Source: Lentinus brumalis (lineage: Eukaryota > Basidiomycota > Agaricomycetes > Polyporales > Polyporaceae). From it: 64,000 bases of DNA. How positions within the stretch are numbered: position 1 is the stretch's first letter; each line of letters starts with the position of its first letter. The DNA lies in assembly GCA_001792895.1 (NCBI GenBank), contig MARA01000013.1, positions 806,001 through 870,000 on the forward strand, given 5' to 3'. The notes beneath the pieces are model-generated. The model had not been told where the DNA came from. It searched no databases and worked only from the letters and a program-made list of their open reading frames with translations. Position numbers and translations under genes: made by a program. Of this stretch, positions 28,513 through 54,215 are shown piece by piece.

Positions 28513-30269
28513 CTACGCGGCGGAAGATGACGATGCAATGGCCTCAGGCACCTCTGCCAGGACCTCCCCCTCCTCACCCAGGGCCTCTGAAGTTGAGCGG
28601 TCTTGCAACTCAATACCATTGTCATTATCAGACTGCGCTGAGCGACTGGAATTGATGAAGCCTCCAAGGGATGAGATGAAGCTCGGTGTACTGTCCCATG
28701 GGTTCCTCGAGGAATGCAATGGATCGTCGGCATCGAGCTTTACGACTGTGTGGTTTGCTTCTTGAAGTTCGAGGAGGAAGCGTGAGATGAGGATTGCTGT
28801 GATTCTGCAAAGGAATTTTGTGTGAGTGAATGCATGCAGGATACTATGGTTAGCAGTGTGATGTGGACACGTACGGGGCAGTGAATGTAGGAATCAGACT
28901 GAGACCACTGTCACTGCCATCTACTGCCACCTATGGAAGTATCTATCAATCCTGACACACAGATAGAAGATGCAAGACAGATCAATGCTTACTGCCGTGG
29001 CAGAAAAGACAAGGTGAAGTACATTCATAATGAAAAGGATGCTAATGCCCACGTTTAACTCGGTGAGTTTTTCAGATACTTTGGGAACCTTTGGCACAGG
29101 ACTTACATGAAATATATGGTTCCTGTGCATGAAGTCAGGCATCAGTAATCCAAAGGAATTTGCTTGGAGAGACATACCACCATGGAAGAGGATGTCTGAC
29201 AGTATAAGCCTCTTGGACTTGTGGATGTCTGTCAGTGTGGCAGAACCTCTCAGTGTTGTCCAGGTGATGTAGATGAGTATAATGTCAGCAGTGATAAGGG
29301 GGACTCGGGAGATGATTGTGACTGTGTGGTTCTGTGAATCAGTGTGCACCATTGCATATAATTGTTAGCCAACCTACGCCTTGTACAGAGTCAGTACCAA
29401 TGGATGTGATGAGACTGAACAAGCCAAACCTAAGTAAGAGTGCAGCAGTTGTGTTGTCTGTATAGATGCATCCAAACGGCGGGAAGTTCTCTCCAGATAC
29501 CTGATAGCCATATGGAACCTGCATCATGGCCCATCAATATTTTGTGGCAGTCCATATGAGTCCAAGAACATCAATCTACTCACCAGATTCGCACCCACTG
29601 GTGCTAGAGACAAAGCAGCAACAACTATTCCCAGGGGCTTGCTCCTGCTCAACACATATGCACGGAGGGCTGAGAATGCTGATTGCATGTGTCAGGGAAC
29701 ATGACTCAATGGCTGTAAGTATGCCTTACCTGCTCCGGGGATGAATTGCAGTATTGTCATTGCCTGCATGGCTATGGCAAACAAGGAACAGCTGCAGACA
29801 TCAACAATCATGTTTTAATCATCTGAACTCTGCAAGGCTTTGCACAAACCTCTGATTCTGGTCAGATTTGCCATGACTCCGACTGAGACTGCTTACCTTA
29901 TCAGAAGGGAAAGATGCAAACTCGACCAACACCATGACATAGACCATCATGGTAATCCACTTGTTTGCGAAGAACAAGAGTGCTGCTCCGTTGATGCGCT
30001 TTGTAGTCCAGAAGTAGGCTACCTCTTGATCAAATGTGAGGAAGGTGTCATAGACGAAGAGAACTGCAGCAAGAGAAAGCATCAGGCTGACATCAACAAG
30101 TCTGAAATGGAGTGAATGCACCTGAGGCTGCAACATTGCAGTAGCCGCTTGTATAGCTTTTGGATGGAGTCAGTAAGTGTTATTCATGATGAGAGACCTT
30201 CAGATATGAAACATACAAGATGTCAAATAGGGCCACAGTCGCAGCAGCAGCATCAGCGTCAGAAGACAT
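28513..30269 (-). CDS. DUF6533-type multi-pass membrane protein
   Basis: Minus-strand gene from ATG 30269 to the stop at 28513, in about 8-9 exons. After a short Ala-rich start, splices lead to the DUF6533 signature LFVYDTFLTFDQEVAYFW...INGAALLFFANKW (about 30055-29975). A first GTAAGC intron follows. Hydrophobic segments come next: LFAIAMQAMTILQFIPGA, SALRAYVL, VVAALSLAPVGANL, AALLLRFGLFSLITS, VPLITADIILIYITW and LFIMNVLHLVFSA. This suggests about seven membrane spans. The C-terminal tail is polar and acidic (IELQDRSTSEALGEEGEVLAE). Most junctions are clean GT...AG with kept phase; the exon near 29100-29150 is uncertain. Function of the family is unknown. Unlike its surroundings it is AT-richer and appears intact. 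Confidence 0.7.
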
Positions 30270-31495
30270 GGTGAGGTTGAAAGAGGACCCTCAAGTCACT
30301 GAGGGTTGAGGAATATTGCGGCTACAGTAATGGCTTAACCAGGTCTTATGTTGCGCATGACTGTATGGTCAACATCTAGGACACTGGTCGTTGGGTGGTC
30401 ATCAAGGTATGCACAGTGCAGCTGGCAACCACCATGTTTGATGATCTCCTAACCACACCATGCGGTACAGAATCTGTGTGATTCCGAGGCAGTGGCACAC
30501 CGCAGTTGGGTGGACAGGGCATTGCGCAGCTGAATGGCTGTCCGGCCAATTGAATAGTGTCGCTGGATCAACCTGAAGGCGATTTGGATGATAAGCCATG
30601 ATCATTGATGATTGAACAGAGGATGGACACAGATACCAGCAGGAACTTTGCACCTGTGCGGAACACGGTGGCATAATGGCACGGCTGGCCGTAGAGAAGA
30701 CTTGAAGCACAAGTGAATGAGGTTTGTGGAGATGGGTATGTCAACGAGGCCATCCGGCATCCTGAACCTAAGATCGTCGCAACTGCAACTAGATGTATAG
30801 AAGAGCAAGCTATGGATCCTGTACAACCGTCAGTGCAACTGAATGACATGCGCGTGTGTGCATCATGAGAAACAATCCAACAGGCCGCCGAGATCATCAT
30901 AAAGATGAGGTGAGTTACATCTTCCCTGCCTCGCGTCGCCTCGGACGACTGCTGACCGCGTGTTCAGAACACTCGCAACACAGAATATCAGCGCTGGAGA
31001 TGGCGAACCAGTGGACGCATGTTCGGAGGCATGCTGCACCAGTTGTTGAGCTGGGCTGGAGGAACAGCAAGCGCGGCAGGGAAACAGTCGAGAGGAGCCC
31101 GACAAGGCGGAATCAATCCTGGAACATCAAACAAAATCACACCGCCGTATGTGCTGCGCGAAAGCATCTAAAAATGACACACAAAGTGGAACGGAACAAG
31201 AGCAGTCGGCGGGATTGAGGGATATGGGTAATGTATTACGATAGAACTAAACTGCATGGGCGCATAACAAGAGAGATCTGGAGTGTAGGTAGCGGATGAA
31301 AATGAGGCATAGTATGTACTGATGCAGACACCTTGTTATCCCGAAGCAACAACAACGAGGGCCGCGCGGCGAGCCAAATGAGATGAGACATACAGGCGTT
31401 GAGACGTATGTAACCGGTGGGGGGTTGTCGATGAGGACTGGGTAACGACGGAGTGCACTTCACGATTGACCAACAAAAATGACGCTGACGAGCAG
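30270..31495. other. No complete gene recognised
   Basis: Short frames on the minus strand (30568-30900 and 30863-31105) are hydrophobic and Ser/Cys-rich, with donor-like GGTGAG near 30908, so decayed exons are possible. No family could be named. Confidence 0.35.
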
Positions 31496-31995
31496 ATACG
31501 GGGGATGTTAGCAGACCGAAAGAGCCATCTAGGGACGCATTACCCACAAGACGTCAGGAGGACTGCGGGCATACTTAGCGTTCGTGCATGAGGCGGCAAG
31601 TAGCAACTGCCAGCACAGCGGCGTCCGAGCTAGTAGGGACCCAGCCAGAGAGCGTGTCGCGCCTGTCCGACACGGTATGCGGGATTGACGGCGGGCATGA
31701 GAATGTGCGCGACGGAGATGCGCGCGGTGCCGTTCGTAAGAGGGCTGGATAGGACGGGCGGGGCTGAGGATAACGAGGCCCACGGATAGAGCCGCGGTGT
31801 CGCCGAGGGCGGAGGAGACGGAGGCGCGAAGAGCGAAGAGCGGCGCCGCCTGCGCAGACGTTGTGGAGGAACGCGCGTAAGCGGAAGGCACGCAAGCACG
31901 CGAATGTGACACTGGTACGGGCTCGAGGGTGTGCGCAATTCCTCCTGGGGGAGGTCGAGGTGTCGAGGCACACTCCCGTGTACCCGGGCGAACGT
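31496..31995. repeat. Dispersed repeat B, copy 2
   Basis: Second copy of the 27160-27670 repeat in the same orientation, about 4.3 kb away. Together the B copies flank the DUF6533 gene. Confidence 0.55.
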
Positions 31996-32409
31996 CGGCT
32001 GCTGGCCGCATTCAGCGCGAGCTCCCTCCATCCTGCCCGTGAGCGACATGTCGATGACTGTTCCCCACCCATGATGCGCAAGTGGAGGCCCGGCGCGATT
32101 CTCCTGTCCATGAACCCGCCCAGTACTCCCAGTATATCGATACGCATGTCACTTACCTTGCGAATGTCCCTCTCCCGCGTAAGCTGGGCTCCCTTCCGTT
32201 CTCCGTCATCTTCTGCCAGTGACGTTCATGAGAGAGCCGCGCTGGAGCTGCCTCCAGTATTGAGTACTTGAGTGATCGCCCGGGTTTTGCACGCGGTCCG
32301 TCGCCGACAATGTCGTAGTTCTCGAGGAGCTCGAGCGAGTCCAGATCGAGGATGTCCCAGTACATCCATCTTTAGACTTTGTGTGAGGGGTGTCGGGCTC
32401 GGGCTCGAC

Positions 32410-35400
32410 GCACGCGGCGGGAGAAAGAGGCGGAAGAGCCGCCCGGGCCTGCATACAAGACGCATCAAGGTGCCATAGACAGCTTTGAAAGAATATAAGC
32501 CTAAGACGAAGTAATATGCAGCAGCAGAGGCAGGACTGTGGACGTGGACGACGACCTCGGGACGTAGTTCAGGGCAGGCCGATCCCATGCAAACGTCAAT
32601 ACCGCACGGCTTCTAAGTACCACAGACACGGAGCGGCGGCGTGACGGACGATGTCGATAACATAAGGCTCTCCGACTCGGAGAGCGGACGGGTACTGTCA
32701 TTCTACCACTCTCCTCCAGCAAGACCACTGGCGTATATTCACTGCATGCCGCCCATCTTTCCGCCTTCTCTTCGAGTGCAGGCCTCAGCGAGGTCGTCGG
32801 TCCGCGGTCGCAGCGCTTCCCCGTACCCTTCCGTGTCCAGCACAAGCACGTCGGTGCTATCTGCCCAGCTCTGTCGAACCGGACTTAGAAATCCATCTCT
32901 AGTCAGCACACCACACAGACGACGGAGAAATGCGGACCATACCGGTTAGTTGCTCACCTCCCCTGTAGTCGCCGCTCCCCAGTTGACGATCCGTCCTCTC
33001 CAATGCAGGGCCTGCCCAACCCGCCTCTCACCCGCTCGTGGTGCGCACAAGCCTGGGAGAGGTGCGAGTATGTCTTCCTCGTCTTAACACTGCGCCGCAC
33101 GACAGACCGCACTGACGCGTCCTATCATCGTCCCAGCATCCCAGATCCGCTTTGTTACCTGGCGCGAGTGAGACGCCATGCCATTGCGGTGTTACGGTTC
33201 CACCTAGGCTATCCGTCCAGTGGGTTGCGCTTCCAGGTTCCGCGCGACCTCAATAGCCTACGAACCTTCCGGACGAGACGCGCAGGATAGAGGCATGGAT
33301 GGAGGCCGATTTCGCCAAAGTGCGCCGGAATGATGTCGTGTCGTCTCGTACGGCAGACTACCCTTGAGCAGACGGCCGCGATGAGCACTCGCTCGCAGCC
33401 CGCATACATGAACGGGCGATGCTTACCGCTTGATGGGGAAGGTGCGCTTTGGGCTAGATGTGCAGTCACCAACGAGAGAGACGATCGCGAAGGCCCCCCT
33501 AGCTAGCGAGGTATAAATGCGGACTGTCCTATTCGAGGCATAGACTGATCCGCCCAAGTCCCTGTCGCCTTAAACGTGGTTCATAAACCTGGTAAACGTC
33601 AAGCCCACCGAGACTCCGGGATGCGTTTCCATGGCCGTCGATGGCAGGACTGTCGTGACGGTTCTCTACAGGGATACGTCCCCAGCCTGTAGCGATGACA
33701 TGATGTACTGTGAGACTAAGTTCGAATGCGGGAGCTTGCACATGAGTATGAACGATCGCTCCGTACTCACCTTGCTTGCCAGCAGCGTCGTGAAGTCGCG
33801 CGAAAGAGTTCCCGACGACTAACACCTATATGCACCCAAGTACGTAGACAGATGAATATACCGGGGACTTTGCAACTGCTGCACTTGACGTACCTGCCGC
33901 AATTGCCTGCAAGCGAACTGGACTACCAGCTCGCTCGAGCCCGTGCTCGAGCCGGACGCAACGAGCATTGAGAACGCTTACTCCAGTTGAACGCCAAGGT
34001 CGCGTAGTCGTGCTGGTAGTCATATCGCTGCACAGATATGCGGGCGTGCTTGCGCGGCGCGCCGTCATTTCTGATTCTTGAGACATATTGCAGCCAGCCC
34101 GCGGTGTGAGGGCAGAGGCTGATGCTGCATGTGACGCAGTTTCTGTGATAATTCCAGACATCATTACAGAGCAATAACGGTGGGACACACCACTTGCCTG
34201 ACCGGTTTCTTCGGGTCTGGACGTTGTTGCACTGACACACCGCGGACGCAAACTCGTCCTGGGTGCGCGACAGGTAATTAATGCCACACGCTGTCTGGGT
34301 AGACGAATCAGGCTCACCGAGAATGCCACGGGGGTCTGGAGGGGTCTGGCTTGAGAGAAGGATGTCGTCTTGGACAACGATCGCGTCACTGGAGCTACAT
34401 GTCGCGCATACGACGATCTCCGCGCGTGTCTGGCCCTCGTGGGGGGCTCAGGGACGAAGGAGCGGGGCAGGTCCTCGGGGACTCAACCGGCCTGGTCTGG
34501 CACATCGCGGGTAGTCAGTACGCAGAAGAAAGAAGAGTGAACTACTCACCACGGTGTGACACAAACCAGGAAACGACAGCGCAAGTACGCCGACTGCATG
34601 CGCACATGTGCGTGTGTGTGAGAACGTCAAGTCGAAGCTGACGGGTCTGTTGAGAGCTACTCACCTGAGCACTGCGGGCAGGAGGAGCACACAGCATGGT
34701 CCGTGCGAAGGGTTCACTCCATGGGCAGGACAGCGGACAGACCGCGCGAGCAACAGAGAGTCGGCACTACAAGGAAGAAGACTCGCGGATACGACGCGCA
34801 GGACGAGTCCACCGTGGTTCACTGGAAGGACGCGGCGTGGAGTTGAGCCGAGGCGGAGGGCGACCTCGAGTCGTTGACGCAAAGACAAGGCATCAACGCG
34901 ACAAGCAGCGGGTTCGACACGACTAGTTGCACTTGGAAAGGGAGGAGCAGTCGAGTGAGAGCTGCGCGTCCATCGGTCCGAAAGCCCGCGCATGCCTCTG
35001 CCCGGCGCCTACGCATCTCCTGCAGCGACCGCGATCAGAGACGAGCTCAAGTGAAGCGGCCCCAGTGTATGACCGCCATGGCTACAGGACAAGACCACGA
35101 CCAAGGCCTGGGCGACCATACGAGCTCTCTGCTGAGACTCTTGCACACGGGGATCGAAACTAGACTTCTCGCTCCTCCGCTTTCTGCCCTCCTCGGGCTT
35201 CTATCCGTCTTGCCGTGGGCCCTGGCTACCAGTACAGTTTCTTCAAATGTTCTTCATCTCCGACAGCCTGCGGAAACGATGGACCGCATGAGGCGGCACG
35301 GAATTCCACCAGGCCGCTCTCAAGGTGTATTTTGCTGAAGCATGTCCCTACGAGAGCAAAGCTGTCGCGGCGGACAGGAACGAATGGTGCACGCGGTACG

Positions 35401-36431: not shown

Positions 36432-36483
36432 ATCCCGGGTTTGTTAGACTCAAATCCCCTGTAGAGGGCCACTACGAGTACCA
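36432..36483 (+). repeat. KDZ left TIR, outer 52 bp
   Basis: Matches the inverse of 54215-54164 with one difference (GAGTACC against GAGCACC). Its last 12 bp, CTACGAGTACCA, are the left copy of the duplication made by the nested DUF6589/RecQ unit. Confidence 0.85.
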
Positions 36484-36493
36484 TAGGCTCGTC

Positions 36494-36553
36494 CCCAGCC
36501 TGTTCGGTGATGGCGATTTCGAGCTCCGCTGTGAGGGCACCGAACAGGCTGGG
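36494..36553 (+). repeat. Left subterminal hairpin of the DUF6589/RecQ unit
   Basis: Perfect 16-bp stem (36494-36509 with 36538-36553; arm CCCAGCCTGTTCGGTG) around a 28-nt loop, starting 10 bp inside the left end. The loop contains ATTTCGAGCTCCGCTG. CTAACCCGGCG follows directly. Confidence 0.85.
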
Positions 36554-36684
36554 CTAACCCGGCGTCATTTAGGTGAGTCGGCCCGTGGGAAAACGTACTT
36601 ATAGAAATCTCAAGGATGCCGTCTGCTCAAGAACGCGAAGATGCCTCATTTCATATGCACGTCCTGTTCTACAAGTGTGTAATC

Positions 36685-39600
36685 TCATTCAATATAGTCT
36701 ACATCATCGTCCTCGAAGTCCAGATCGAGGTCCTGAGCAGATTCCAGGGAAAAGGGCACGTACTCGTGTAAGTCAAGCTCCTCCACTTGCTGCCAGTATT
36801 GCACATCGTCGTCGCCATCTTCGATGAACTCATGACCTTGCAGAGCTGCATCTTCGCCAGGTAATGGAGGAAGAGAGTCGGGAGCATGAGCGACGGAGGG
36901 TGTTGGGACAGGTGCTGTAACTGTGGGCAGTAAGCCAGACGCAGCTGCGGGAGGGCGTTCTCCGGGCGAGGGAGTAGTGACGTATGGCTTCCCAGAAAGG
37001 GGAGCCATAGTACAGCGCCGCTGGATGCGAAGCAGTTGGGTATTGAAGTCGGCGAGGGGACCCGCGAGCTGAGTGCATCCTAGAGAGACCGCGTTGGGAA
37101 CAACACGCTTGGACGTGCCGTTGACCAGACGTCCAGGCTCTACCTCATAGACACCGTGCTCCGTGAGAGAGCGCACGAGCTCGGCGATGTCCTTGTCTAG
37201 GCCGGGTGTGGTATGCTTGGAACCTTGTCGCGCGCCGAGGCTGGTATTGATATGAGTGGCGAGACGGCGGAGCGTGTTGATGGTGGGAGAGACCATCGCA
37301 AGCCACTCCCATGATGCGTTGCTTCCATGGGCGCGGTAGATAGTCTGAAATACCAGTAGGGCTCATCAGCAGAATGTACGGTCGACAGACACGCAAGGCA
37401 GTACCTTCGTCCAGAAGTTGTTGTGCTCTTGCATAAGGTCGACCTCAACCCAAGACTCATCTTTGCCCGTGGGATTGACAAGCCAATTCCGCATGATAAT
37501 CTTCCTAGTGAGCGTCGTATTGAGATGATTAACAGGAACGTAGATACTAGCGAGAGGCTAATACTCACTTGAGAGGGTCGGGCCAGACATACTTGAGGTT
37601 GTGGATGAGATGCAGCATCTCGTACGCGTACTTCGTCCGGCCTGATCCTCGAAATGCGAGCGCCCACAACTTGAGCACGGTCACAATACGCCCGGAATCT
37701 CCAGCCTTGATAGCGTCGTTGAACTCGCGCAGTACAAGGCCATCGCGCAGGAAGAGCACGGCGTTCTCGAACACGACGTCCCCGACCTTGAGCGGCTCTG
37801 TGGCTAGGTTCTCATCGGCATCATACTCGTCGATGTTGTTCATCACGGCCTCGCGTCTTCGTATCTCGGCCTGTCGTTGGCGACGCATCTTCTGGACAAC
37901 TTCAGGGTTGGCGTACTGCTCGACGACCTGCCGCGCGTGCTGCTGGAGCTCCGGAAACTCGATGGCGGCCGCGTACTCGTCCAAGTCGCCACTCTTGGAC
38001 ACATTTTGCAAGCCTACGAGGGTGCGTGCATATACATTGAGGAAGATGTGGTCGCGACATACGTGGAATGGGGGAAGGGACGTGAGCGTAATGGGTTTAT
38101 GGTCGACGACGGTGTTGGCAAAGGCAAGGGAACCTGGGTCAGATGTTGAGCTGGTTCCGTAATGGAGCTCGAGTATACCGTGAGTTGCTGCCATTTTGTA
38201 GTGAAATAGACCGGGCATGCAGACGGCCCACAGGAACGAATTTGAGAAGCTGTCATGACCCGCGCGGGCAGCGACCAGGGAGCGTATACGAGCCACAGAT
38301 AGCTGGTCACCCGCGACAAGTTTCACGGTGCTGGTGAACTCCTCGCTCGACATATCCAAGCCAACCTCGTTGAAGACTGCATTCAGTACGTCCGCATTTC
38401 CTGTCGTACTTGACTCGTCAATATTCATGGCTGGCAGCGGGAAGATCTCCGTCTGATGGAGGGGGATCTTCTCCGCTGTCACTGGGGTGGACTCCTCGAT
38501 GTCGCCTTTGAATCGTTCGAAACGCGGGCCACCGTACTTCACGAGTATGCGCAGGACGGTGTGCACGAGCCGATCTACAAGCTCGCGGTTCTCCTCAGGT
38601 GTGAGGAGTACGTCCTCGGCGTGCAGCGCAGGTGCTGCGACGAAAGAGTCCAGGAGATCAGTCGTGCGCATGGCCTCGGGGGACGCGCCGAACAGCTTGA
38701 AAGCTGTGGCACATGTGCCGTTTTGCTGGGAGTCCTTGCGCCCAAGCACTTGCTCTGCGATTTTGAAGAGCATGTTGATGTTGTCGTAGACGTACGCAAG
38801 GAGGTCACCAAGAGCCTCCTGGCGGGTGCGTTCACGGCATGCGTTAGAGAGCCGCTTGAGGAAACCAAAAGCCGCGGTGTGCGAGCGGGGCTTGCGCTGC
38901 TTGCTTGCAGTTATGGTCTCCGGGGGTGCTGGGGGACTGCCAGGTGTAGTAGGATCAACGGTAGTACCGATGTCGTCAAAGAATGCCCAGTAGTCTTCGT
39001 CTGACATGTCATCCACAGGTCCTGATGATGCACCAGTGACAGGAGTGTTCGGAGCAGCTGCTTGAGGTCCCGGTGGTCGTTGGTGCGAGCCGGGGCCTGC
39101 TGAGGTCGTAGGAAGGTCGGTGTCGCGAGAACGGAAGAGGCCGATGAGTGAGGCATAACTGCAGGTCAGTCCGAGATGCGAGAGGACACTGATGACTTGA
39201 CGTTGTGCGCCGCACGCATACGCGTAGAGTCCAAGGACATATTTTGCATAGCTATTGCCTTGGCTGCGTGCACCAAGACCTATCAGAGCCTGTGTAGTAG
39301 TGCACTGTGGTGACACGATTTGTTCATTGTCAAACTGGGGTAGCAGAAGCCGCCGTCACGTACGATATCTTTGCGCTCTCGGCTGTTCTCACCCATCTCT
39401 CTCTCCTGCCTCGTGGTCGTACTGAATGCTTGTAGGACCTCCATCATCGTTGGGCACAGGTTCAAGATCTTCTTGCGGAGTTCCTGGAGGCTGAAGTCGA
39501 GTGCGAACGTCGCATCCAGTGTCATCGTACGTGTTTGTAGCAGGTTCGCTCGAGTTGCGGAGTCACCTTCTGACGACACTGTTTCTTTAACATAGTTGAT

Positions 39601-40251
39601 CGCCCACGCGTGTACAATTTCGCGGCCCGTCTTGCTGTTACGAGGAGAGACCCACGCATTCAACACCCCATGCACGCGCCCCGGCTTGCTGAAGAAGCCC
39701 CAGTACCGTTCATGTCCTTTGTAGTTATCTGCGGTAGACACGTACTCCAGCAGCCCTCCAAACGCCAGCTTGTGGTCTTCCAGGTACGCAAGGACCTCAT
39801 TGTACGCCGCGCGCGCTGATTTCTCGGCCTCCTCTTGCGCCTTCAACTCTGCAGCCTGCTTCTCGAGCTGAAGCCGCGCCTGGGTCTCACGCCGTCGATC
39901 TTGAGGTGTCCGCAGGGGCGCTACCATTTCAAACCCGTCTGATAGAAGGAGCGGGCCGAGCTCGTCGTGTAGTATCCGGGAGGGATGCGGAGTAGCCTCT
40001 ACGAGTGGAGACGAAGGACAGCTAGCGGCACGGACATGGACAGTATGTCGGAAGGTTGGCGAATTGGGTGCGCTCATGGGTGTGCTCGATAGGCTTGACA
40101 TTGTGTACAAGCCAGGTGTGATGCTGACAATATTGTAGCGTATACACGGGGATGAGGGTAGCGAGGGGAGTTCAGACAGGGGCGACGAAGGCGGGAGACC
40201 TGCGAACAGATGTTGCCGGTCCGGTATGTCGATTTCTTCCTCGTTTGACAT
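36685..40251 (-). CDS. DUF6589 domain protein (candidate transposase of the unit)
   Basis: Minus-strand gene, start ATG 40251, stop at 36685. Later exons are 39334-37569, 37504-37405 and 37344-36685, with clean introns of 64 and 60 bp (NPTGKDES...EVDLMQEHNNFWTK|TIYRAHGSNASWEWL). The N-terminal ~280 residues are Ser/Pro-rich, then a charged helix (TQARLQLEKQAAEL). The DUF6589 core begins FDNEQIVSPQCTTTQAL and has VYDNINMLFK, VAGDQLSVARIRSL, CMPGLFHYKMAATHG, CRDHIFLNVYAR and KLWALAFRGSGRTKYAYEMLHL. Asp of DNIN, Asp of GDQLS and Glu of the EVDLMQEH segment could form a DDE-like triad; that is inference. The join of exon 1 to exon 2 near 39393-39334 is unresolved. The 58-bp GTGAGA intron gives the wrong phase and a 29-bp one is implausibly short, so a one-base lesion is possible. 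Confidence 0.8.
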
Positions 40252-40448
40252 CGTGTTGACCTAGTATTCACAGCAAAGAGTGACGGTGTGCGGATAGAAG
40301 AGTGGGCTGAAGCCTGGGCCAAACGCGCACATTTCTTATGTGGTAGGTAGCCCGATTAGAAATTGAACCGCCCGAGCTATTTACTCCGAGTCCTCCGCAG
40401 GCTCTCTCTCAGCCCTTTGTGCCTGCCAACTTCTTCTGCTATACTTCA
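40252..40448. promoter_or_regulatory. Shared intergenic region of the divergent DUF6589 and helicase genes
   Basis: Only 197 bp separate the two start codons, so the genes probably share a bidirectional promoter. No clear TATA box on either side; a pyrimidine-rich stretch precedes the helicase start. Co-expression is inference from the layout. Confidence 0.5.
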
Positions 40449-43400
40449 ATGCCTCGCCGACCCTCGCCGACTGCCCAGCCCCGGTGGGCGAGACGACCAA
40501 CAAACCCTGGTCGACAACCAAAGCGAACAGTTCTTACCGACAAGGACATGGACTGGCTGCGTACTCAGATGCGGGAACGCTACAAATGGTCCTCAGATCC
40601 ACGCTTGTTCCAGCTTGAGGGCATCAAGGCTCAGCTAGAAGGAGTCGACATGATTATTCAAGCTCCCACTGGATCAGGCAAGACCGCAATAGCAGCTGGG
40701 CCGCATCTGTGGCCAGGCAGTGAAGGCAAAATCACCATTATGGTCTGCCCGCTGTTGGCCCTCGAAGAGGAGATGGTACAACGTCTACACAACCCACCTA
40801 CTTCATATCCCTGACATAGCCTCGCTCCCAGGTTGAAACCTTCTCTTCGGAGTTCGGCTTGCAAGCTGTTGCTGTGAACAGTGCCGGTGGGGTGTTAACT
40901 CAGACTGTGGTCGATGTAAGTCATCTTTCTATTCATTATCACAGGCCGAAAGAACATTCCCTCCATGTAGGACCTAAACCGCGGCAAATATCAGATATTG
41001 CTCATCTCGCCCGAGATGCTGCAGTCACCCGGATTCATCAACCGCGTCCTGCGTAATTCGGAGTTCTCCCGTCGCGTCCTGTCTCTGTTCATAGACGAGG
41101 CCCACTGCGTCTCACACTGGGGTGCCAACTTCCGGAAGAAGTACGGTAGTCTCGGCATCGTACGTGCATTCCTGCCTCGGAGCACCCCGGTCATCGCAGT
41201 CACGGCCACGCTCACTGCTCGTGTTCGCCGGGACTTGCATCATGTTCTCCACTTCCCTAAGTTCGGGAGCCGCTTTCTTAATGTCGGCAACGATCGCCCG
41301 AATGTCAGTATTGTCGTCCGCGCAATGGAACATGCACAGAACACGTACGCCGACCTCGACTTCCTCATTCCCACCTCTGTCACCACTGCCACCGACATCC
41401 CAATGACCTACCTCTATGTCGATGACATCAAGGCTGGGACTGACATCATTGACTATCTCAACAACCGCCTCGAGACGCGGTCACCGCTTCTCGCGAGAGC
41501 CGGGCTCATTCGGCCCTTCAACGCGTCTATGGACCACACATATCGACGCGACGCCATGGCGGCCTTCCGGCACAACCCGCCGCCTTGTGTCACGCAGGAG
41601 AGAGACGGAATACCCTCAATGTCAGCCACTAGTTCGGGGTCGGACCCAGTCGACGCAGGCCCAGCCTGTATTCGAATTCTGGTTTGCACAGATGCCGCGG
41701 GGATGGTGAGTCTTCGTTTGCCTGCAGAAATGACCTCATTGATTTGTCTCCCAAAGGGATGCAACGTCAAGGACGTGGACCTTGTAGTCCAGTGGAAGCT
41801 ACCGAAGACACTATCGAGCTTTGTGCAACGCGCGGGGCGCGCTGCACGCGCCCCGGCTCACCGCGGCCTTGCCGTACTCCTAGTAGAACGATCTATCTAC
41901 TCTCAAGATATGCGGGGATGTGCTAAGCCATCGTGCGACGCCCAGGCCCCTCCACGTGCTAGCACAACGAAAGGCAAGTCGACTCGGGGCAAGAAGGCTG
42001 GTGCTGCTGCTAGCAAGACGCTGCCAAAGGGTTACGCCCAGCGCCACGGCCTGGATCGCGGAGGGAACAGCCGGCGAGACGAGTTCCCCAACCCAGAGCC
42101 CGGAGAGGAGCCCGTACTCGACTCCGAGGCCGCGGATGAAGGTCTCCGAGTGCTGGTTCAGGCAAGAACATGCCGACGCGAGACATGGGCCACGGTGTTT
42201 GAGAGCGAGAAAAGCAGTATGTATTTCTGACACTCTTGCCCTCGTACCTCCTTACTCAGTGTTCCATCCTGACTGGGTTATCTGCAGGCCCTGTACCCGG
42301 CGTTTCATGCTGTGATATATGCGACACGAAGCTCTTTGATCGCGTTCGTCCAGGCCAGGTCCGCGCACAATCCAACCGAAGACTCCCCGCGAAAGGCCGG
42401 CCTGATCTTGCTGCGTACGATCGTCTCGACGCGTGGCGCGAGGCCATTTTCAGTGAAGACATGCGCCTGAGTCAGCTAGACCCGGACGCCATCCTCGACG
42501 ATACCACCATCCTGTCGCTGGTGTCAGTCGGACGGCTCAATGCCCCGCAGGTCACGCACATACTCAAGGACACCTGGACATGGTGGAACAAGTACGGTCA
42601 GCGGCTGTCCAACGTTGTCACCTCCCTCAACATCGTATATACCCCCCTCCCGAAGAAGACCACACGTCAACCAGGTGTGACGTCGACAACTAGCCAGCGG
42701 GCCCCGGTCATACTCCTCCCCGTCCAGCCTGCTACGCCCGCGAGCTCGCCTGCCCTGTCGCGTCCTCAAGCAGACACTCCCGCCGCACCATCATACTCTG
42801 GCGTGCCACAGCCATCGCAGAAGCGCAAGCATGCTGACATGACGCTCCCTGCTGAGGACTCCGAATCTGCGCCCAAACGCCACCAACTTTCGAGCCCGGC
42901 ACCTCTACCTTCTCGTGCCGTCGCAACGCAACGTTCGATGGCATCGGTGGCCCCGCTACGCCCTGACCCCTCGTCCTATAATGCGCACCCTCGCGTTGTA
43001 CCAAGGCAGCCACAGTCTGACGGCTCCTCCTATGCAGCTGGATCTGCTGTACGCGCCCTTCACGTGTTGCAACCCCAAGCTGCACATGCAGCAGCGTATG
43101 CTGCGCTGCTGGCTCACCTGGCCCCAACTCAAGAAGCCCATCCTGCGCAGGATCCAGCTCTTATGCAGCCGCATCAACTCGATCTTCGAAACCCGTACTA
43201 CCCACACCCCCAAGGAATGGGCTTCGCGACACAGAACATCTGGCCTCCTCCTGGCTACGGCATTCAACGTCAACCTGACTACTCCACGGCAGCCTCGAGC
43301 TATCACGGATCCGGCCACTTGAGCGATGGCGCGCCGGGACATCACAACCACTACACAGTGCCGACTCATGCACCCCGGCCCATGGCAAATCCCACCCCTT

Positions 43401-43579
43401 CCTACCCGCATCCCCAGTCCGCGAATCCCGCTGGCACCTCTTATGATACTCACCTGGTCCCTCCCTATTACCCCGGCAATCCTCCCGCGCATCCCGAGTC
43501 CCACTATGTGCCCGACTTGTATGGCTGGCAGCCTTCCTCCACCCCGGAACACGAGTACTGGGGAATGCCGGGCTATTAG
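40449..43579 (+). CDS. RecQ-like superfamily 2 DNA helicase, ~965 aa, 5 exons
   Basis: Exons 40449-40775, 40832-40915, 40971-41705, 41757-42216 and 42288-43579 join in frame; the third intron is 51 bp and read-through. Helicase motifs in order are FQLEGIKAQLEGVDMIIQ with Walker A APTGSGKT (about residue 75), LISPEMLQSP, and DEAH in IDEAHCVSHWG (about 178). VTATLT follows (about 215), then CTDAAGM|GCNVKDVDLVVQW and QRAGRAAR (about 406). A Cys-rich SCCDICDTKL segment near 540 could be the RecQ zinc-binding region. The last ~300 residues are Pro/Gln/Tyr-rich and low-complexity. RecQ enzymes unwind DNA 3'-5'; a role in moving this unit or resolving its hairpins is inference. Apparently intact. 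Confidence 0.85.
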
Positions 43580-43756
43580 TGTGATTCTGGCGCATTCCTA
43601 GAGTTGCTGATGTACCAGTGTATGTTTTGAAGTAATGCTACAGGACAGAAAGTGTATACATGGGAGGCAAGGCTCAGTTCGCAGAATCGACGTTCTCGTG
43701 AAAAGTACAAGTCCGTTTTCCCACGGACCATCCCACCTAGAGGGCGACGGGTTAGC

Positions 43757-43828
43757 CCAGTCGGTATAGGGAGCTTGCCCCATTTGGAACTCCGCTGATG
43801 CCTCGTGCAAGCTCCCTATACCGACTGG
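43757..43828 (+). repeat. Right subterminal hairpin of the DUF6589/RecQ unit
   Basis: Perfect 22-bp stem (43757-43778 with 43807-43828; arm begins CCAGTCGGTATAGGG) around a 28-nt loop, ending 9 bp inside the right end. The loop contains ATTTGGAACTCCGCTG, like the left loop and in the same orientation, although the stems are unrelated in sequence. CGACGGGTTAGC flanks it on the inner side, mirroring the left end. Confidence 0.85.
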
Positions 43829-43849
43829 CGTGCGAGTCTACGAGTACCA

Positions 43850-44303
43850 CTACGAATATCGTCTGCCTCCTTCCCCGAAGTAGAAGGGTTCCTCCCGCCC
43901 TCTAAGTGTCGGCCATCCCGCCCCCTCGGGGAGTTCGGGCATGCCTTCCGGGCTACGTCAGCCATCAAGCCGATCAGTTCCGCGCCTCCGCACCTGCCCG
44001 CGCCGGCAACGTGACCTCCGGCGCCCGTCCCGCCTCTGCAGGGCGTCTGGGACGGCGCGCTCGCTGTCCCCGACGGTGAGCTCGCTGTTCCCGCCGTCCC
44101 CGCCCTTCCACTGCGCGTTTCGGCATGATTCTGGTATGTACAAACTCGTATTGTCGAGCTCTATTCAACGCTGACGTCTGTTTTAGCTCTCGCCATCATA
44201 GAGCAGCGCCAAGCCCGCCCGCACACCGCCCCGCCACCCCGCCCAAGCGCCGCGCCGTCCCGCCCTTGCTACTGAACGCCGCCGGATGATACTGGTATGT
44301 ATG
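43850..44303 (+). repeat. KDZ left TIR, inner part
   Basis: Continues the left TIR after the nested unit. Inverted match to 54136-54175 and 53295-53719, including CTACGAATATCGTCTGCC and GAAGGGTTCCTCCCGCCC. Homology with the right TIR fades after the GGATGATACTGGTAYGTATG block. Confidence 0.85.
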
Positions 44304-44512
44304 CGTTCGGATTTTTACGCTCTATGCAGCGCTGAGGGCCGTTTAGCTCTCGACACCGTGGCACACCGCCAAGGCCGACCGCGTATTGTCCCGCCTCCCC
44401 GCCTATGCGCGGCGCTATCCCGCCCCTCATACTCAATGCCTCAGCATCATACTGGTATGTACATGATTGTATGCTCGATGGCTATCCAGCGCTGACGATC
44501 GTCACAGCCTTC
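44128..44512 (+). repeat. Three ~160-bp tandem units, each with an intron-like segment
   Basis: Units starting near 44128, 44289 and 44449 each carry CTG|GTATGTA, a GCTGA(C/G) branch-like motif and a TTTAG or CACAG acceptor. This outlines segments of 52-53 bp (44134-44186, 44295-44346, 44455-44507). Between them lie Pro/Ala/Arg-coding GC-rich stretches. The period is 160-161 bp. The first unit is also present in the right TIR, and the second only in part. Confidence 0.6.
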
Positions 44513-45193
44513 GACGCCGCGGCACAGCGTGCACACTATCCCGCCTCCCGCCCAGGGCGCGACATCTGGGACACGTGGACCGCCCTCCTGTGGCCGATTA
44601 GTCATTGATCGGCAGCTTGCCGAGGTTCCTTCCCCGAACTTTCTCCTCCTCCCGCCCTCGCTGTCGAAGACGTCGGTGCCGTCTGCACTGTCCCGCTGCG
44701 CGATGGACATCCATATAGTAAGTACAGGTACGCCCATGGACGTGGTACGCTACCGTACACAGGTCGGAACTCCGGTGTAGATAGTCCAGGAGCTTTGCTA
44801 GCCGCGTCTAAAATTTGATCCGCCGCCGAGTGGCGCCCTCGTCCATCTGCAGTCCCCGCTCCTCTACATATCCCTCCCTGCCACTGCAGATTCTAAGGAG
44901 TCTCTTAATGATGCTACGATGCGCCCCCGCCAAGTCAATAGCTGGTTATAATGACTACTGAGACAGTGTGCATAGGCATATCAGCTAGGCCACAGCATCA
45001 AGATGCCAGATCTCCGAGCGATCGAAGATTCAAAAGTTACTGATCGCCACCACTGTCCCGCCAAGGAGATTGATACGGTGTCCTCCTCCCCTCCTGTCTA
45101 TACACGCGGCACTACGCTAAGGCTCCGAGTACCGGTCAAAAAGATGGCAACGACCAACCTTTCCCTCCAGGCCGTCTCCTCCTCCTACGCACC
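44513..45193 (+). other. No gene seen between the KDZ TIR and the transposase
   Basis: Likely 5' flank and promoter of the KDZ transposase. No long frame and no clear motif beyond a pyrimidine-rich tract before the ATG (CACCATGGC context at 45191). Confidence 0.4.
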
Positions 45194-48100
45194 ATGGCAA
45201 AACGGCGAGCAGGGTCCCGCAAAGTCAATTTTATCGGGCCGGAGTATCATCCGACACCCTCGGGGACCCATGCATTGTCTAGCTTCTCGGGTAAGCGTGT
45301 CGGAATGAAGGCGCTGGAGAAGGAACGCAAGAAGGTCGGAGATCGTCAGGAGATCGTCACACAAGGTACGCTAGCGATAAGTACTCACTTACCGTGGCAC
45401 ACTGACCGTTGGTTACGGTTGATCCAGGTATCGGTCCCGAGAGCCGTCAAGCACTGTCAGACTGGCGAGGAGAGACACCCATGGAGGGCGTACAAGCGGA
45501 GGGGTCATCGGCAGAGGACTCCGGAGTCTTCGGAAGCCATGACAATCTCGGAGGAATGCCGGATCTCGGAGGACAAGTCTGCGAAGATGATGAGGAAGAT
45601 GATTGGGAGGACGAGGGCGTTGAGACGATCACGTATGCAATCCGCGACATTCTGGATGCGCGCTCTCAGTGAGTATCTCTACCTCTGCATCATATGCACT
45701 GACTGACACATCCTGCAGTGTGAGCCAGCGCGTCCGGAAGGATCGCAGGACGTGGACACAGCGTGTGCAGTCCATGGACGAGAACTGGAAAAAGAAGCTA
45801 CCGCTCCTTGTCGACGCGTATCTGAATCACAAGTACAGCCCCACGCCTCCGGCGGCAGACCCCGAATCAAGCGCGACCATCGAGATCTTTGATATCTACA
45901 CATGCAAGTCTTCCGTCACCATCCCGATCGCCGAAGGACAGTCCCTAGCCGAAGCTCTGGTAACTGCGGGGTACCTGCCGACTACACCAATGTTGCCCTC
46001 CCTTGCGATCTCCCTCAAGACGCTCGAGCTGTACAGGTGTCTTCGGTTATTCAAGGCATCATTCTCGGCTGAAGCGTTCACGAAGCTCCTCTGCCATCAA
46101 TACTCCGTATGTCACACTCTCTACCATCTACCACGGCGCCGCTAACTGATCACCCCAGATTCCGTACCGCCGGTCGTATCGCACATCAATCTCCGATGTG
46201 TTCGATATTTATATCCTCATTCTGGAAGAAGTTCACGGCCGCGTGATGGCTGTTTTGCAGCGTGATGATCCGGACTGGCGCGCACAGAATAGTTGTGCCG
46301 CTTGCTCTTACGAGGTGCGCTTCATTACTTGTGCTAGCTCATTCCGTGGCCAGTAAGCTCATGATTATCACACAGGTCGAAGGCGAGGAGCCTCCTTTGT
46401 ACTCTCGCATGGTGTGCTTCGACGGCAACAACTCGTTGAAGCGACTCGCGACCTCCGAAGGTCGGAATACCGGGGACACGCGGACCTTCCAGAGCGACTA
46501 CATGCTCCCTCGTGACTTTGTTGATCAATTCGCAAACGAAGTCAAGTCACGTCAGCGCCAAGCGAAACCTGACCTTGTGGATACGGACGACGAGGCTGAC
46601 GAGACCGCGGGGGTCCCCGACACTGCTGAAGGTGACCCGACAGACGGCTGCAACACCACGTCGAAGGCTGCCCCATGCGCGACGAACTGGAAGGCAGCGG
46701 CTGCCGATGAGAAGAAGCGGATGTGGGGTGCGTTCGATGAAAGCGGTGTCTTCATTTGCGTTTGCCGGCATGGCTTGATCTTGTGGATCGCCGATATGGT
46801 GCGCAGTGGGGAGTTGTGAGTGGATCGGCCTTCATCTAGTTACCGGTACTGATCTCTCGCCTGCAGAGCCAAGTATGCCCTGGCGATGGCGTCACGCGTC
46901 AACGAGAAGATCCGCGGCAAGAAAATGATCGCTTATGACATAGGGTGCGCGTTTGAGGAGACTGTACTCCACAGTATACTCCGCGCCGCCTTCGAGGCGA
47001 CGGGCTCTCGCTTCTGCGTGCCCGCTTTCCACGGGTATTCACACTCATACAACTGCCAGGTGCAGTACCATCCGAACGCGATCGAGGGAGTTGGGTTGGA
47101 GGATTTCGAAGAGTCCGAGCGCGTGTTCAATCACTCGAACGAGCTCGCGGTAATCACGCGCCATGCGTCCCGGTTCCGCCGGCATCTCGCCATCCATATG
47201 TTCTTCCGTCAATGGGATCACGAACGCTACGCAAGCACGGGGGAGATGCTGTACAAGAACTACGTTCAAGCGCTGGATATCATCAGCAACACGGAGGGCC
47301 TCAGCAAGTCGCTCGAGACCCTTGAACTCACGGACGCCGACCTCGCGCGCTTCGAGACCGAGGAGCGCGAGTACTTCGCGACACTCCAGGACGAGGACCC
47401 TGCCAATGTCCACACCATAGCATACGTGGAGGCGCTGCAAGCGCTGCAGAAAGCCCAGTAAGTACGATGTCTCTTTGTTATGGCAGTGTAGGCTTACTGA
47501 TGACCTGCACATCAGGAACGAACTCGCGGACACATCAAGGCGTTTCCGCGGACGTGCCCCACGCGTAGATGGCGAGGTTGATCTCCAACTTACGTTCCTG
47601 GCGCCCAGCACTGGGCCCGTCGGCTACGATTCCAATCGGTCGGAAACATTGAAGCTTGAACGTCGCCGCCGGCACCTCCTCGATCGCGTCGATCAACTCT
47701 CTGCCGAGGTCGTCGCGATTGAGACAGAGTACGGCATCGAAAACCGGTGGCAGCCCGGCGACTTCTTGTACCAACAGACCGTCGAATACATCTCGACGCG
47801 CCGTTATCAGCGAGCGCTCGGAAGGCTTCAACGCCTCGTTATACAACGCCTGTTCGAGCTACATAAGCTGAACATCGGACGTGCAGGTAAGTGTTCGGTT
47901 TCCCATGACATCATCATGAGCTGACTCTCAACTGTACACGCAGGATACAAGGTACGCACGTACTTGGCCAAGAGTCTGCAGCGGCGATGCAGAGCGATTC
48001 GCAATGCTGTCACCGAGTACAACGCAGCAGCAAGGGCACTCAAACCAGCACGCCCTGAGGTCGACTTCGACAAGGTGACGCACTACACCTTTCTTGAGCA

Positions 48101-48599
48101 ATTCACGCTCCTCCAGGACACTCGGAACGACATCCGGGAGAAGCCCTGGACGCGACCGGAAGTCCGCGAAACCATCAAGCTCTCACGACGCATTCGACGA
48201 GCACGTGAAGAGATCCAGAGCGTCAACTGCGAAGCTCGAAGGGTGCACACCTCCATCCGCGATGAGGAGGTTCTCTTCCGCGGTGTACTCGCGCAGCTCA
48301 AAGACAAGGGTGACGTACTCCATGGAGCTGTCGAGGAGTACTGCCGCCATCGTCGTGCAGCAAATGCAAGGAATATGGCCTACCTTCAGAAGTTGTACGC
48401 ACTTCCTGGGTTCACCGGGATACCGTCCGCCGGATGCCACCCCGGTGCCCCAGAGCCACCGGACCACGGAAACACCGGAGCCGAGGGTCAGAGGGACAGC
48501 GTAGGGCAGGACGATGCTGAAATTGAGGGCATTGAGGTAGACGATGGTACACACGAAGTTGCATACGCCATTTGGGAGTATCTGGCCGACTTGAAGTAG
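45194..48599 (+). CDS. KDZ transposase, 1004 aa, 8 exons, apparently intact
   Basis: Exons 45194-45365, 45428-45668, 45719-46106, 46159-46314, 46376-46815, 46867-47457, 47516-47886 and 47944-48599 keep phase throughout. After a basic start and an acidic stretch comes the conserved core: WTQRVQSMDENWKKKLP and HGRVMAVLQRDDPDWRAQNSC. Next are a CxxC (SCAACSYE, about 315), PPLYSRMVCFDGNNSLKR (about 330) and KRMWGAFDESGVFICVCRHG. Then come LWIADMVRSGELAKY, AYDIGCAFE (about 489), FHGYSHSYNCQVQYHP, GVGLEDFEESERVF and FFRQWDHERY. The Asp residues of DGNN and YDIGC are the likely first two acidic catalytic residues of the RNase H fold. The C-terminal third is coiled-coil-like with an acidic end (GIEVDDGTHEVAYAIW). 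KDZ elements are abundant in Agaricomycetes. Confidence 0.92.
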
Positions 48600-48986
48600 T
48601 CCCCGTAGTCTTGTACAGGGTGTTCAATCAATGATATTATTACGAAACCGTTTGCTAAGCATTGTACTAGTATGCAGCAGAGTGTGTATGAAGTTTGGTG
48701 GGGTGCCGATTTGTGGAACGTCCAGAGTGCGCAAAAGGCACCCAGGATGCAACTGCTGTTTCGACCTTGCATGCACACCGCGTACTGCGAAATACGGGAC
48801 ACCCGACTTTCACATAGTCACTTACAAAGTACTCCACCATGTTCTACTATGCTAGTTAACGATGTCCTGTAAATTACAGAGGACGTCCAAGCGTCGTACA
48901 CCCACAATACCCAAATGAGTGCCAGAATGGCCGGGCATTAAGACGTCTTACATGAGCGCCTACTGTGCGCATCTCAGCCTTCCACC
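48600..48986 (+). other. No gene seen between the transposase and the next KDZ gene
   Basis: About 390 bp with AT-richer stretches. Probably 3' flank of the transposase and promoter of the next gene. Confidence 0.4.
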
Positions 48987-50217
48987 ATGACGTCCGCGGA
49001 TCCTCCCACCCTGTCTCTCCCTTCCTCCACCAATCGAGTGCCGGCGGGACTTATAGTCCCCTCGAATGGGCCGTACTACGTCGTTTTTGGCCGTGATTTA
49101 CTCAAGATCCACGAGCATCGGTGAGTCAACTCCATTATTGGGGTGCGCGGGCACGCTCTTGCCCCCTTCTCTTACATGTTACGTACCTCCGCGTTAGTCC
49201 CGCCGGTCTAGGTCTTGGAATCAACACCCCAATCCTGCCTTTCGTCATCACCTGCAAGCGGCGCGAGGAGGCTGTGGCGGCTGCCAGCATCAATCACGCC
49301 GTCTTCTCCTCCACGACCGTCCGCGACGCCCACGCTCTCGCATACCTGGTGCAACAGAGCCACATCAATGTTCGAGAGGGACACATCTACTCTATTGTGC
49401 GCGGTGGGAACAGTGAGGCACCCACGGGTGTGTACGTCGGCTTCCCATGGTGAGTTTCACGTCAACATGCTCGCGCATCGATCATGTGGCACTAAGTAAT
49501 GCAATACAGGATGGAGCTTGACAAGTATATCAGGCCCGACAAGAGCGCGGCACACTGGAGGAAGCGGCCGTCGCTCCAGGACGCCATCATCTACATGATG
49601 AGCGAGAAGCCGGGAAGTAACATCCCTATCTTGTCACCAGGGCGTCCGATTCCCCCTGCCCCTTCCCTTCTGGAGGTGAGTTATCTCCTTCACACGGCCG
49701 ATTTTGTCTGTCATTACATACTTATGGTCTTCTGACAGCCGGAGCCTAGCTGTCCCGACGAGAACGCGTCTGACGAGGCGAGCGACTCCGAGAGCGCTAG
49801 CGGGGCTGTCACCGAGGACGAGAACGCCGAGAACGATGTTTTCTATGACGGTGAGCATGATAAGCTTATCGTTGACCGCTGCTAACTGCTGCAATAGCAA
49901 TGGTTAACCTGAGCATCGAGTCCAAGGCTGGGGGCGTGGAGGATGTCGTCTGCAAGGCCCTCGCGCAGGTGATTCTTCCACTCCCGAGCATGGAAGATGG
50001 GAAACCCCGTGGCCGCTACCCTGTCACTCTCGGGAGCAGGGCGGACAAGATGCTGGCTTCTCGCGGCGTCAGCGAAACGGAGATCTGGAAGGTTCTGTCC
50101 GCGCGGGTGCATTGTACGACGGTGGAAGCATTCTCCTATCATATGGGCATGGCCCTGCAATGGTCGCCCATGGAGAGTACGCTCCTGTGGGAGGCCATAC
50201 ATATCCCATCGTTGTAG
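48987..50217 (+). CDS. KDZ-borne hypothetical protein, 327 aa, 5 exons
   Basis: Exons 48987-49120, 49198-49449, 49510-49675, 49739-49850 and 49898-50217 join in phase. The N-terminal half is globular: PYYVVFGRDLLKIHEHR, INTPILPFVITCKRREEA, HALAYLVQQSHINVREGHIYSIVRGG and TGVYVGFPWMELDKYI. It resembles a small alpha/beta fold of the kind with a conserved Trp/aromatic face. An acidic linker (ENASDEASDSESASGAVTED) separates it from a helical C-terminal part (VVCKALAQVILPLPS...SEVEAFSYHMGMAL-type; read EAFSYHMGMALQWSP in the sequence). I recognise no family. Sitting inside the TIRs on the transposase strand, it is probably element-encoded rather than captured. Confidence 0.7.
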
Positions 50218-50390
50218 CTAGTCATGTAACATGTACAATATAGTATGCTTGTATCTAAGGAATCCTCCCTCGCGGTCACGTGAGAACACTGTGGGATTGT
50301 TGAGTGTCTCTTGTCGCGCCCTCCAAAACATACTCAGGGTCCGGAACTCTCTCACACAAGACAGCTTCCATTCCCACCGGTGCCAGCGCG

Positions 50391-52143
50391 ATGCCATCCA
50401 CGTCCAACATCGAGAAACTCCTCAAGAAGATCGCGAAGCCCGCTCGTAAGGTGGGCGGCAGCAAGCGGACCCTGTATCCCTGGACATCACGACGTCGTCG
50501 GCAATATCAGAAGCTGTCAAAGCAGGAGCGGAAGGAGCTCCAGGCCCGATGCAATGCAAACCGCAATGCTCTCAAAGCCGCCCTTCAAGCTGCGCGTGCG
50601 GAGATGTACGATCGGGCGACCGAGATGGCAGCACAATTCGGGAACAAACACACACCGGCATACTACTACAAGCTCATCATGCAACGCACCAACCTGAAGG
50701 CCGAACCGCGGAAGGTCTCGCTATGGAACGCGTTTGTGAGTAAAGAAGTCGAGAAGCGCAACCAAGGTACGCACGCGTTACGTTTGGGCGGCGCAGGGCT
50801 GGTTCTCACTTCTTCACAGATATGGCCGCTGGGGGCCGAGACAACGTCTCCAAGGACATCATCAAGGAGATATCGAGGAAATGGAAGTCCCTTACCCCCG
50901 AAGAACGCGAGGCCGAGGTCGGCGACCGTCTCGAGCAGCTCCAGGACCGACAGAGCGAGCGCAAGCTCGTCGTCCACAACGAGGCACTGGCCGCTTTCAA
51001 TGACACGCGCGCAACGCTTGCACTCATTCAGCGCGAGGTACGCTCGTTCACACCTGCTTCGACCATGCTCCCACTCACAATGTCACACTTCTAGCTCGAG
51101 TACCTGAAGGGTCGCACAGATACGGACGTGCTATTCATAGCCGTCCGCTCCAAACTGGACTTCTGGAACGCACCGTACGTGTTCTGGAGCAACGACCGTG
51201 TCACGACGTTCTGGGAGACGTTGACCAAGAAGACAATCTACGACCTCGCGCTCCAGATGGAAGGCTTCACGATCTCCGGGCTCGACTGTGAGTATATCGT
51301 TCGCTTTCCACCATGCCTCCACGTACTGATGTTTCTCCGCTGCAGCAATTGTCCGCAAGCACGCGGACGAACTCCTGTTCGTCAAGAAAGAGGCCGCTGA
51401 TTTGATCCTTGAGAAGCTTCGTGAGTCTCGCCTTTCTCATGCATGGTATCGCCGCTGACGCGTTCTCAGGGGAAGCGTGCCTGCCCGCGAGGGGTTCCAT
51501 CAGTAAGATGTACTACACCAATTTCGAAAAGCACATCACCCTCAAGTACGGCATCGTGCTCCAGAACTGGCCCCTCCAGCAATTCGTGGCCCCTGGCAAG
51601 TTCAGCAGCATCCCGCTGCTGCAGATGCTGCGTGACTGCTTTGCGCAGGGCACCAGCCGCTTTGTCGCGCTGACCGACGCTGAGTGGACGGCGTGGAGGG
51701 CCGCGTACCACACTGGTACGCACGCCCCTGGCGTGACTGGAGCTATTCCGGCCGCGCTCGCCTCCGAGCTTGCAGCTCAGAATGCCACGCCTGCCGCCGA
51801 CGATACCAACGCGACGTCTACGGCGCCCACCGCCGCAACCACAACGTCCGCGACGCCAGCCACGCCCGCCACACCCGCCACACCCGCGACGCCTGCGACG
51901 CCCGCCACACCCGCGACGCCCGCGACGCCCGCCACGCCCGCCACGCCCGCCATGCCTGTTCCGCCCGCCCCGCCCGCTGCTGCAACCGCCACGCCCGCCA
52001 CACCCGTGCTCACGGCTGGTGCCCCCGCGCCTGCTACCGGCCCTGCGAACGAGTACCTCGTGCTCTCGAACATCGACCCCGCCCTCCTCGCGCTCTCGAA
52101 CATTGACCCCGCCCTCCTCCCGCCCCCGACAACAACTGCTTAA
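50391..52143 (+). CDS. KDZ-borne HMG-like protein, 511 aa, 5 exons
   Basis: Exons 50391-50766, 50820-51037, 51095-51287, 51346-51420 and 51470-52143 join in phase. The start is very basic (KKIAKPARKVGGSKRTLYPW, RRRRQYQKLS). Residues ~115-180 look like an HMG-box or related three-helix DNA-binding domain: SLWNAFVSKEVEKRNQ, a linker, then VSKDIIKEISRKWKSLTPEEREAEV. A folded region follows (TDVLFIAVRSKLDFWN, WETLTKKTIYDLALQMEGF, FEKHITLKYGIVLQNWPLQQF, FVALTDAEWTAWRAAY). The last ~130 residues are low-complexity, with about 18 near-perfect Thr-Pro-Ala repeats, then a duplicated LSNIDPALL. It would act in the nucleus; a role in binding transposon ends is inference. Confidence 0.75.
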
Positions 52144-53719: not shown

Positions 53720-54132
53720 GGATGACTTTCCATAAGACTCTGCGGGTCTACGGTCGCCGTAGATTCCTAGCGGAGCTTGATCTTCGCCGGGTATCTTGAG
53801 CGCTGGACGGACAACCCGTGACTTTCGGAGGTCGGTTGTGCAGATTATGTGAGCAGAAATATTGATGGCAACAGGGTTTGTCATGATGGGGACTTCCCTT
53901 TCAGTGGTTCGGAGGCTCAAAACGCCTCAAGCGAGGCTAAGCGAGAGCTCTGCGGCAGCGTTTAGGTCTACGAAGGGGGGTCGACCCCCTTCGTAGATTT
54001 TGGGCGCTTGAAGTGTCTACGGAGCTCTGTCCCATCAGCGGGGTTCGTATCGGCCTCGGTATCTCGGCCAACAGAGGTGTTTGGAAGTCTACGGTCGTCC
54101 GCAGAGCCGCAGACCCTTATGGAAAGTCATCC
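53720..54132 (+). mobile_element. 413-bp MITE in the KDZ right TIR
   Basis: Terminal inverted repeats begin GGATGACTTTCCATAAG and extend ~26 bp with two mismatches. They are flanked by ACT on both sides (53717-53719 and 54133-54135). It has no coding capacity. Three-bp duplications fit PIF/Harbinger- or CACTA-type transposases, but the family is unassigned. Confidence 0.85.
53967..53997 (+). repeat. GC-rich palindrome at the MITE centre
   Basis: TCTACGAAG and a G run face a C run and CTTCGTAGA around GTCGAC, with one unpaired G. Able to form a strong cruciform or hairpin. Confidence 0.8.
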
Positions 54133-54215
54133 ACTTCGGGGAAGAGGCAGACGATATTCGTAGTGGTGCTCGTAGTGGCCCTCTACAGGGGATTTGAGTC
54201 TAACAAACCCGGGAT

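Follow-up and report, generated by a model that had tools for sequence, protein, structure and literature searches.

How did a block made up of a DUF6589 gene and a RecQ-like helicase gene come to stand inside the terminal inverted repeat (TIR) of a KDZ transposon, and what kind of element is it? The block lies in a stretch of 64,000 nucleotides of the Lentinus brumalis genome (C35:806001-870000; assembly of 53.4 Mb in 136 contigs), which we call the window and whose own numbering is used below. It is a genuine mobile unit, inserted at 36484-43840 within the left TIR of the KDZ transposon, and we consider it highly probable that it is an AcademH-type DNA transposon, autonomous, seemingly intact and moving by cut-and-paste, with the DUF6589 protein as its RNase H-fold DDE transposase. 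The original prediction for this DNA had described a unit of 7,354 bp (36484..43837) with a 12-bp target duplication, belonging to an undescribed class. The mobile unit is real, while its limits had to be redrawn to give 7,357 bp:

36475..36483, plus strand: left copy of the target duplication CGAGTACCA, read at the junction
36484..43840, no strand assigned: the whole element, 7,357 bp, both edges common to the non-autonomous copies C47 and C60
43841..43849, plus strand: right copy of the target duplication CGAGTACCA, read at the junction
54130..54215, minus strand: right TIR of the host KDZ transposon, intact and used as an internal empty site, placed by alignment to the rejoined left TIR

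The twelve bases CTACGAGTACCA do stand at both junctions, as had been reported (36472-36483 and 43838-43849), and the intact right TIR does hold a single copy, albeit with one mismatch. After the left TIR was rejoined by script minus one 9-bp copy, it could be aligned with the right one along 87 columns, the differences being two mismatches and a gap of one base. A tandem array of the 12-mer in uninterrupted KDZ TIRs, which had been named as grounds for doubting the insertion, is not found; in a KDZ relative (C71:1438791-1448636) the 12-mer occurs once in each of two uninterrupted TIRs, and it is therefore not a tandem repeat of the KDZ TIR. Together with the right TIR of the window, these two provide the three empty-site comparators in the genome, which are paralogous rather than allelic. 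A duplication of twelve bases was rejected because the three extra right-hand bases, CTA at 43838-43840, are the right terminus of the element itself, which ends in CGAGTCTA; copies elsewhere with other flanks share the CTA, and so it belongs to the element. The target duplication is thus 9 bp long in the window, as it is at every other site where one was read.

The edges and the length of the duplication recur across the genome. The DUF6589 profile (PF20231) gave 21 genome matches, which fall into 13 loci, and ten of these loci hold a complete element with a helicase gene, an exact 9-bp duplication and YAGNYTCS-like ends (C53, C126, C64, C2, C44, C81, C43, C24a, C24b and the window element). 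The scan looked for an exact 9-base duplication adjoining an inverted 8-base end, with at most two mismatches allowed, and the end motif was selected post hoc, being derived from scan hits already seen. In a control covering the nine elements other than that of the window, 8 of the 9 own left/right pairs passed at 9 bp when the motif was required, versus 0 of 70 mismatched pairs; the failing pair was that of C64, where the right end, TAATCTCG, lies outside the motif. Without the motif there were 10 hits in the nine own pairs and 36 in the 70 mismatched pairs. Duplication lengths of 7, 8, 10 and 11 bp were rejected, with 1, 1, 0 and 0 motif hits in the nine own pairs, and the hits at 7 and 8 bp sit elsewhere, in C24b and C126 respectively, the latter of which also has 9-bp ends. 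C24 was scanned over three spans, since no hit with the motif came from element a by itself; the outer span yielded one, along with one hit that lacked the motif. By identity, the sequences group as C126, C2 and C24a; C43, C44 and C81; C53 and C64; C24b; and the window element. Both the common edges and the fixed repeat length that had been proposed as checks on other copies were thus observed. At the three loci without a complete element, the scan found no duplication for C115, one edge of which coincides with a C64 edge at 83% identity, and the two loci on C63, which are DUF6589 fragments, lay outside the scan. C63 also shows a 7.4-kb inverted duplication (27290-34735 and 51750-59196, 99.9% identical), with the DUF6589 fragments between repeats of ~415 bp, and at C24:313139-325966 the element C24b is nested in C24a, the two belonging to differing sequence groups and each having its own 9-bp duplication.

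Searching the genome with the ends of the window element (36484-36700 and 43600-43837) brought in shorter, non-autonomous copies, two of which, C47 and C60, match both of its edges exactly, while a third and still shorter copy on C82 was located through the left end. Their 9-base duplications are GAGGAAGGC in C47, CTAAGGCCA in C82 and, agreeing at 8 of 9 bases, GGATCGTCC/GGATTGTCC in C60. The left end of C47 is 99% identical to that of the window element over 117 bases, which suggests that the window subfamily may have moved recently. The end-type pattern of the window element had 17 genome matches, four of them already known, and the reversed pattern had 9. Among the 13 pattern copies fetched, three carry an exact 9-bp duplication (the right end is imperfect in two of them), and the other ten show no exact duplication, three of them having only a repeat with one mismatch and no proper end. 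Overall, 15 exact and one near-exact 9-base duplications were read at 29 sites, a denominator that counts the misses and the unscanned C63 loci and consists of the 13 DUF6589 loci, the 3 copies found by their ends and the 13 pattern copies.

The two genes carried by the element, with splice sites that were inferred from sequence alone, and the proposed catalytic codons are as follows:

36685..40251, minus strand: DUF6589 gene, 1,127 residues, three inferred introns (39305-39363, 37505-37568, 37345-37404); predicted DDE transposase
38783..38785, minus strand: codon of the first proposed catalytic Asp (DN motif), Asp in 13 of 13 covering rows, on model strand b1
38306..38308, minus strand: codon of the second proposed catalytic Asp (GD motif), Asp in the 13 full-motif rows, at the end of strand b4
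37426..37428, minus strand: codon of the proposed catalytic Glu (QEH motif), Glu in 7 of 7 covering rows
40449..43579, plus strand: RecQ-like superfamily II helicase gene, 984 residues, three inferred introns (40776-40831, 40916-40970, 42195-42259)

Above the cut-off, the helicase matches the DEAD, Helicase_C and ResIII families, and its nearest solved relatives are WRN, RECQ5 and RecQ. Its C-terminal tail (42300-43579) is long, rich in Pro, Gln, His and Tyr, and without a Pfam match. In the genome, 19 helicase matches fall into 13 loci, ten of which lie beside DUF6589, the others being C102, C104 and C115:995034; in other words, the helicase partner that had been postulated accompanies 10 of the 13 DUF6589 loci, whereas chance would place a helicase within 5 kb of DUF6589 at ~0.03 of 13 loci (a rough figure, with 12 helicase loci assumed). 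The distances among the DUF6589 proteins and among the helicases of the ten elements are correlated (Mantel r 0.88, a value reached by 0 of 20,000 shuffles), in a comparison that used partial pieces, the C44 helicase piece having 75 residues. Given this co-variation, the pairing is an old partnership rather than a chance adjacency. As described from the window, the two genes are paired and divergent there, with ~200 bp between them; divergence did not extend to the remaining nine paired loci, where the genes are convergent, and this order is peculiar to the window copy.

Although Pfam lists DUF6589 under "unknown function", the protein is very probably a DDE transposase, judging by models and conservation. 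AlphaFold models predict an RNase H core interrupted by an alpha insertion, the closest structural matches being the transposases of Hermes (hAT) and the P element, and the residues D, D and E are conserved among the aligned DUF6589 rows, so that the predicted fold and the conserved acids agree with what had been expected of a transposase. The window copy stands outside the seven rows that cover the QEH motif, yet it also has Glu at that position. AcademH transposases have a DDD/E core; the one in DUF6589 is a prediction. The 19 aligned DUF6589 rows matched 11 Pfam families, none of them a transposase family. The A1 profile search against solved structures returned five chains, TAL-repeat proteins or designs that matched an N-terminal stretch, and these were deemed spurious. 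A viral structure library gave no match with E <= 0.001, and viral contigs held no relative of two DUF6589 queries.

The ends of the window element consist of a short imperfect TIR, TAGGCTCG/TAGACTCG, followed inward by hairpins and a subterminal inverted repeat:

36484..36491, plus strand: left TIR TAGGCTCG, read from the sequence
43833..43840, minus strand: right TIR TAGACTCG, read from the sequence
36494..36553, plus strand: left terminal fold-back hairpin, 16-bp stem and 28-nt loop, from folding
43757..43828, plus strand: right terminal fold-back hairpin, stem of at most 24 bp with at most one mismatch, 24-nt loop, from folding
36549..36561, plus strand: left copy of the subterminal inverted repeat CTGGGCTAACCCG, from sequence comparison
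43748..43760, minus strand: right copy of the subterminal inverted repeat CTGGGCTAACCCG, from sequence comparison

A wider inverted repeat (36544-36603 and 43706-43765, 80% identity) surrounds CTGGGCTAACCCG. Fold-back stems, which the original prediction had proposed to look for, are thus present at both ends of the window element. By our reading of the folds, the stem starts 11-14 bases inward of each end in the window element, C53, C64 and C126, and C2 shows a variant with a long loop; in C43, C44 and C81 the stem is clear solely at the DUF6589-side end, C24b has a clear left stem and a shorter right one, and C24a has none that is clear. Folding reached z <= -2 relative to shuffles at 11 of 20 ends and in 5 of 20 internal controls, and the strength of the hairpins is by itself a modest signal. 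GCGGAG/CTCCGC occurs near 8 of 20 ends versus 10.7% of 420 internal windows, a weak enrichment in a motif picked post hoc, and CGGAGA near 9 of 20.

The host KDZ transposon spans 36432-54215 of the window, and its outer edges show no obvious duplication by eye. Its KDZ domain matches (46400-47218) lie outside the inserted element, and the 19 DUF6589 rows gave no match to the KDZ domain PF18758. A genome search with its TIR gave 3 matches, all within the window, the C71 TIR having diverged. It also contains a 120-bp direct repeat (76%) in 44182-44461 and a 425-bp inverted pair at 43879-44303 and 53295-53719 (98%). Elsewhere, two contexts of the 12-mer, L001 (C1) and L006 (C43), are identical across the 90 bases shown and constitute a repeat.

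As for the class of the element, Kojima (2020, Mob DNA 11:15) is said to have placed an AcademH lineage within the Academ superfamily. The excerpted text of PMC10045372 ties to AcademH both an encoded helicase and duplications of 9 or 10 bp, whereas AcademX, the other Academ lineage, differs by an encoded nuclease and duplications of 3 or 4 bp. The window element has the former combination, with its DEAD and Helicase_C helicase and 9-bp duplication. In the portion of PMC10799480 that concerns them, AcademH are low-copy elements of Basidiomycota, Ascomycota and Mucoromycota, and DEAD with Helicase_C are transposable-element helicase domains from AcademH, KolobokH or Helitron; the present family, with 13 DUF6589 loci in a basidiomycete genome, is likewise of low copy number. 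AcademH is also cited in passages of PMC12210899 and PMC9970103. The window element is most likely to be filed as AcademH, by diagnostic features and not by homology, and "undescribed class" was probably wrong, since AcademH had already been described with these two hallmarks. A link between DUF6589 and Academ may itself already be in print; DUF6589 is not mentioned in the main text of PMC10799480.

For an AcademH-type transposon, the fold, the acids and the duplications would be consistent with a pathway in which DUF6589 binds the ends and cleaves them at YAGNYTCS, the cut ends are joined to target strands 9 bp apart, and gap repair generates the 9-bp duplications. In the least certain step, the RecQ-like helicase of the element would perhaps unwind either the hairpins at the ends or the product of strand transfer. 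The edges, the duplications, the pairing of the genes, their co-variation and the conserved acids are observed, whereas the fold and the active site are predictions, and catalysis by DUF6589, the role of the helicase and membership of Academ are inferred from these.

It is conceivable, though we think it unlikely, that DUF6589 instead defines its own helicase-partnered superfamily of DDE transposases, unrelated to Academ, which recruited a RecQ-like helicase independently and uses it to open the long terminal hairpins during transposition. The lack of a transposase family among the Pfam matches and the nearness of the folds to Hermes and the P element would fit this. Against it stand both AcademH hallmarks, helicase and 9-10 bp duplication, as given in the quoted part of PMC10045372 and present here in a fungal genome, and the absent Pfam match is uninformative about Academ. 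Considerably less probable is a diverged member of hAT or the P element superfamily. In structural comparison Hermes and the P element rank first, and YAGN-type ends resemble those of hAT; the duplications of hAT and P elements, however, are 8 bp, whereas those found here are 9 bp, and the window element differs from both in having a separate helicase gene. The hAT dimerisation domain PF05699 (Dimer_Tnp_hAT) matched 44 times in the genome and nowhere inside the ten elements, in a six-frame search where introns could hide a match, and neither it nor a P-type Pfam family was among those matched by the 19 DUF6589 rows. We give even less credence to a replicative or rolling-circle, Helitron-like transposition driven by the helicase. 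The helicase gene on board and the terminal hairpins would suit it, but Helitrons have Rep/HUH with a Pif1 helicase and no target duplication, whereas the present elements have inverted ends, fixed 9-bp duplications and a DEAD/RecQ-like helicase rather than Pif1, a Rep domain not having been searched for separately. Least plausible of all is that the two genes belong to the host or are passengers, mobilised by another agent such as the KDZ enzyme, as the position of the block within a KDZ element might suggest. The ends, the 9-bp duplications and the pair of genes are found again at loci whose flanks differ, DUF6589 and helicase co-vary, and the insertion disrupts the KDZ TIR instead of making use of it; the KDZ enzyme was rejected as the mover.

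What is gained is a likely identity for DUF6589, a family of "unknown" proteins that is numerous in mushrooms. If DUF6589 is the AcademH transposase, its gene models are transposons and not host genes, and their masking is warranted. Through the pairing one can also ask, in a clean system, why a RecQ-like helicase should be encoded by a DNA transposon at all, and whether the terminal hairpins are the substrate of that helicase. With a seemingly intact copy, complete relatives from some five sequence groups and non-autonomous copies whose ends are almost identical, this question lends itself to testing. Should the separate superfamily prove true, there would be a two-enzyme transposition machine among proteins filed as uncharacterised.

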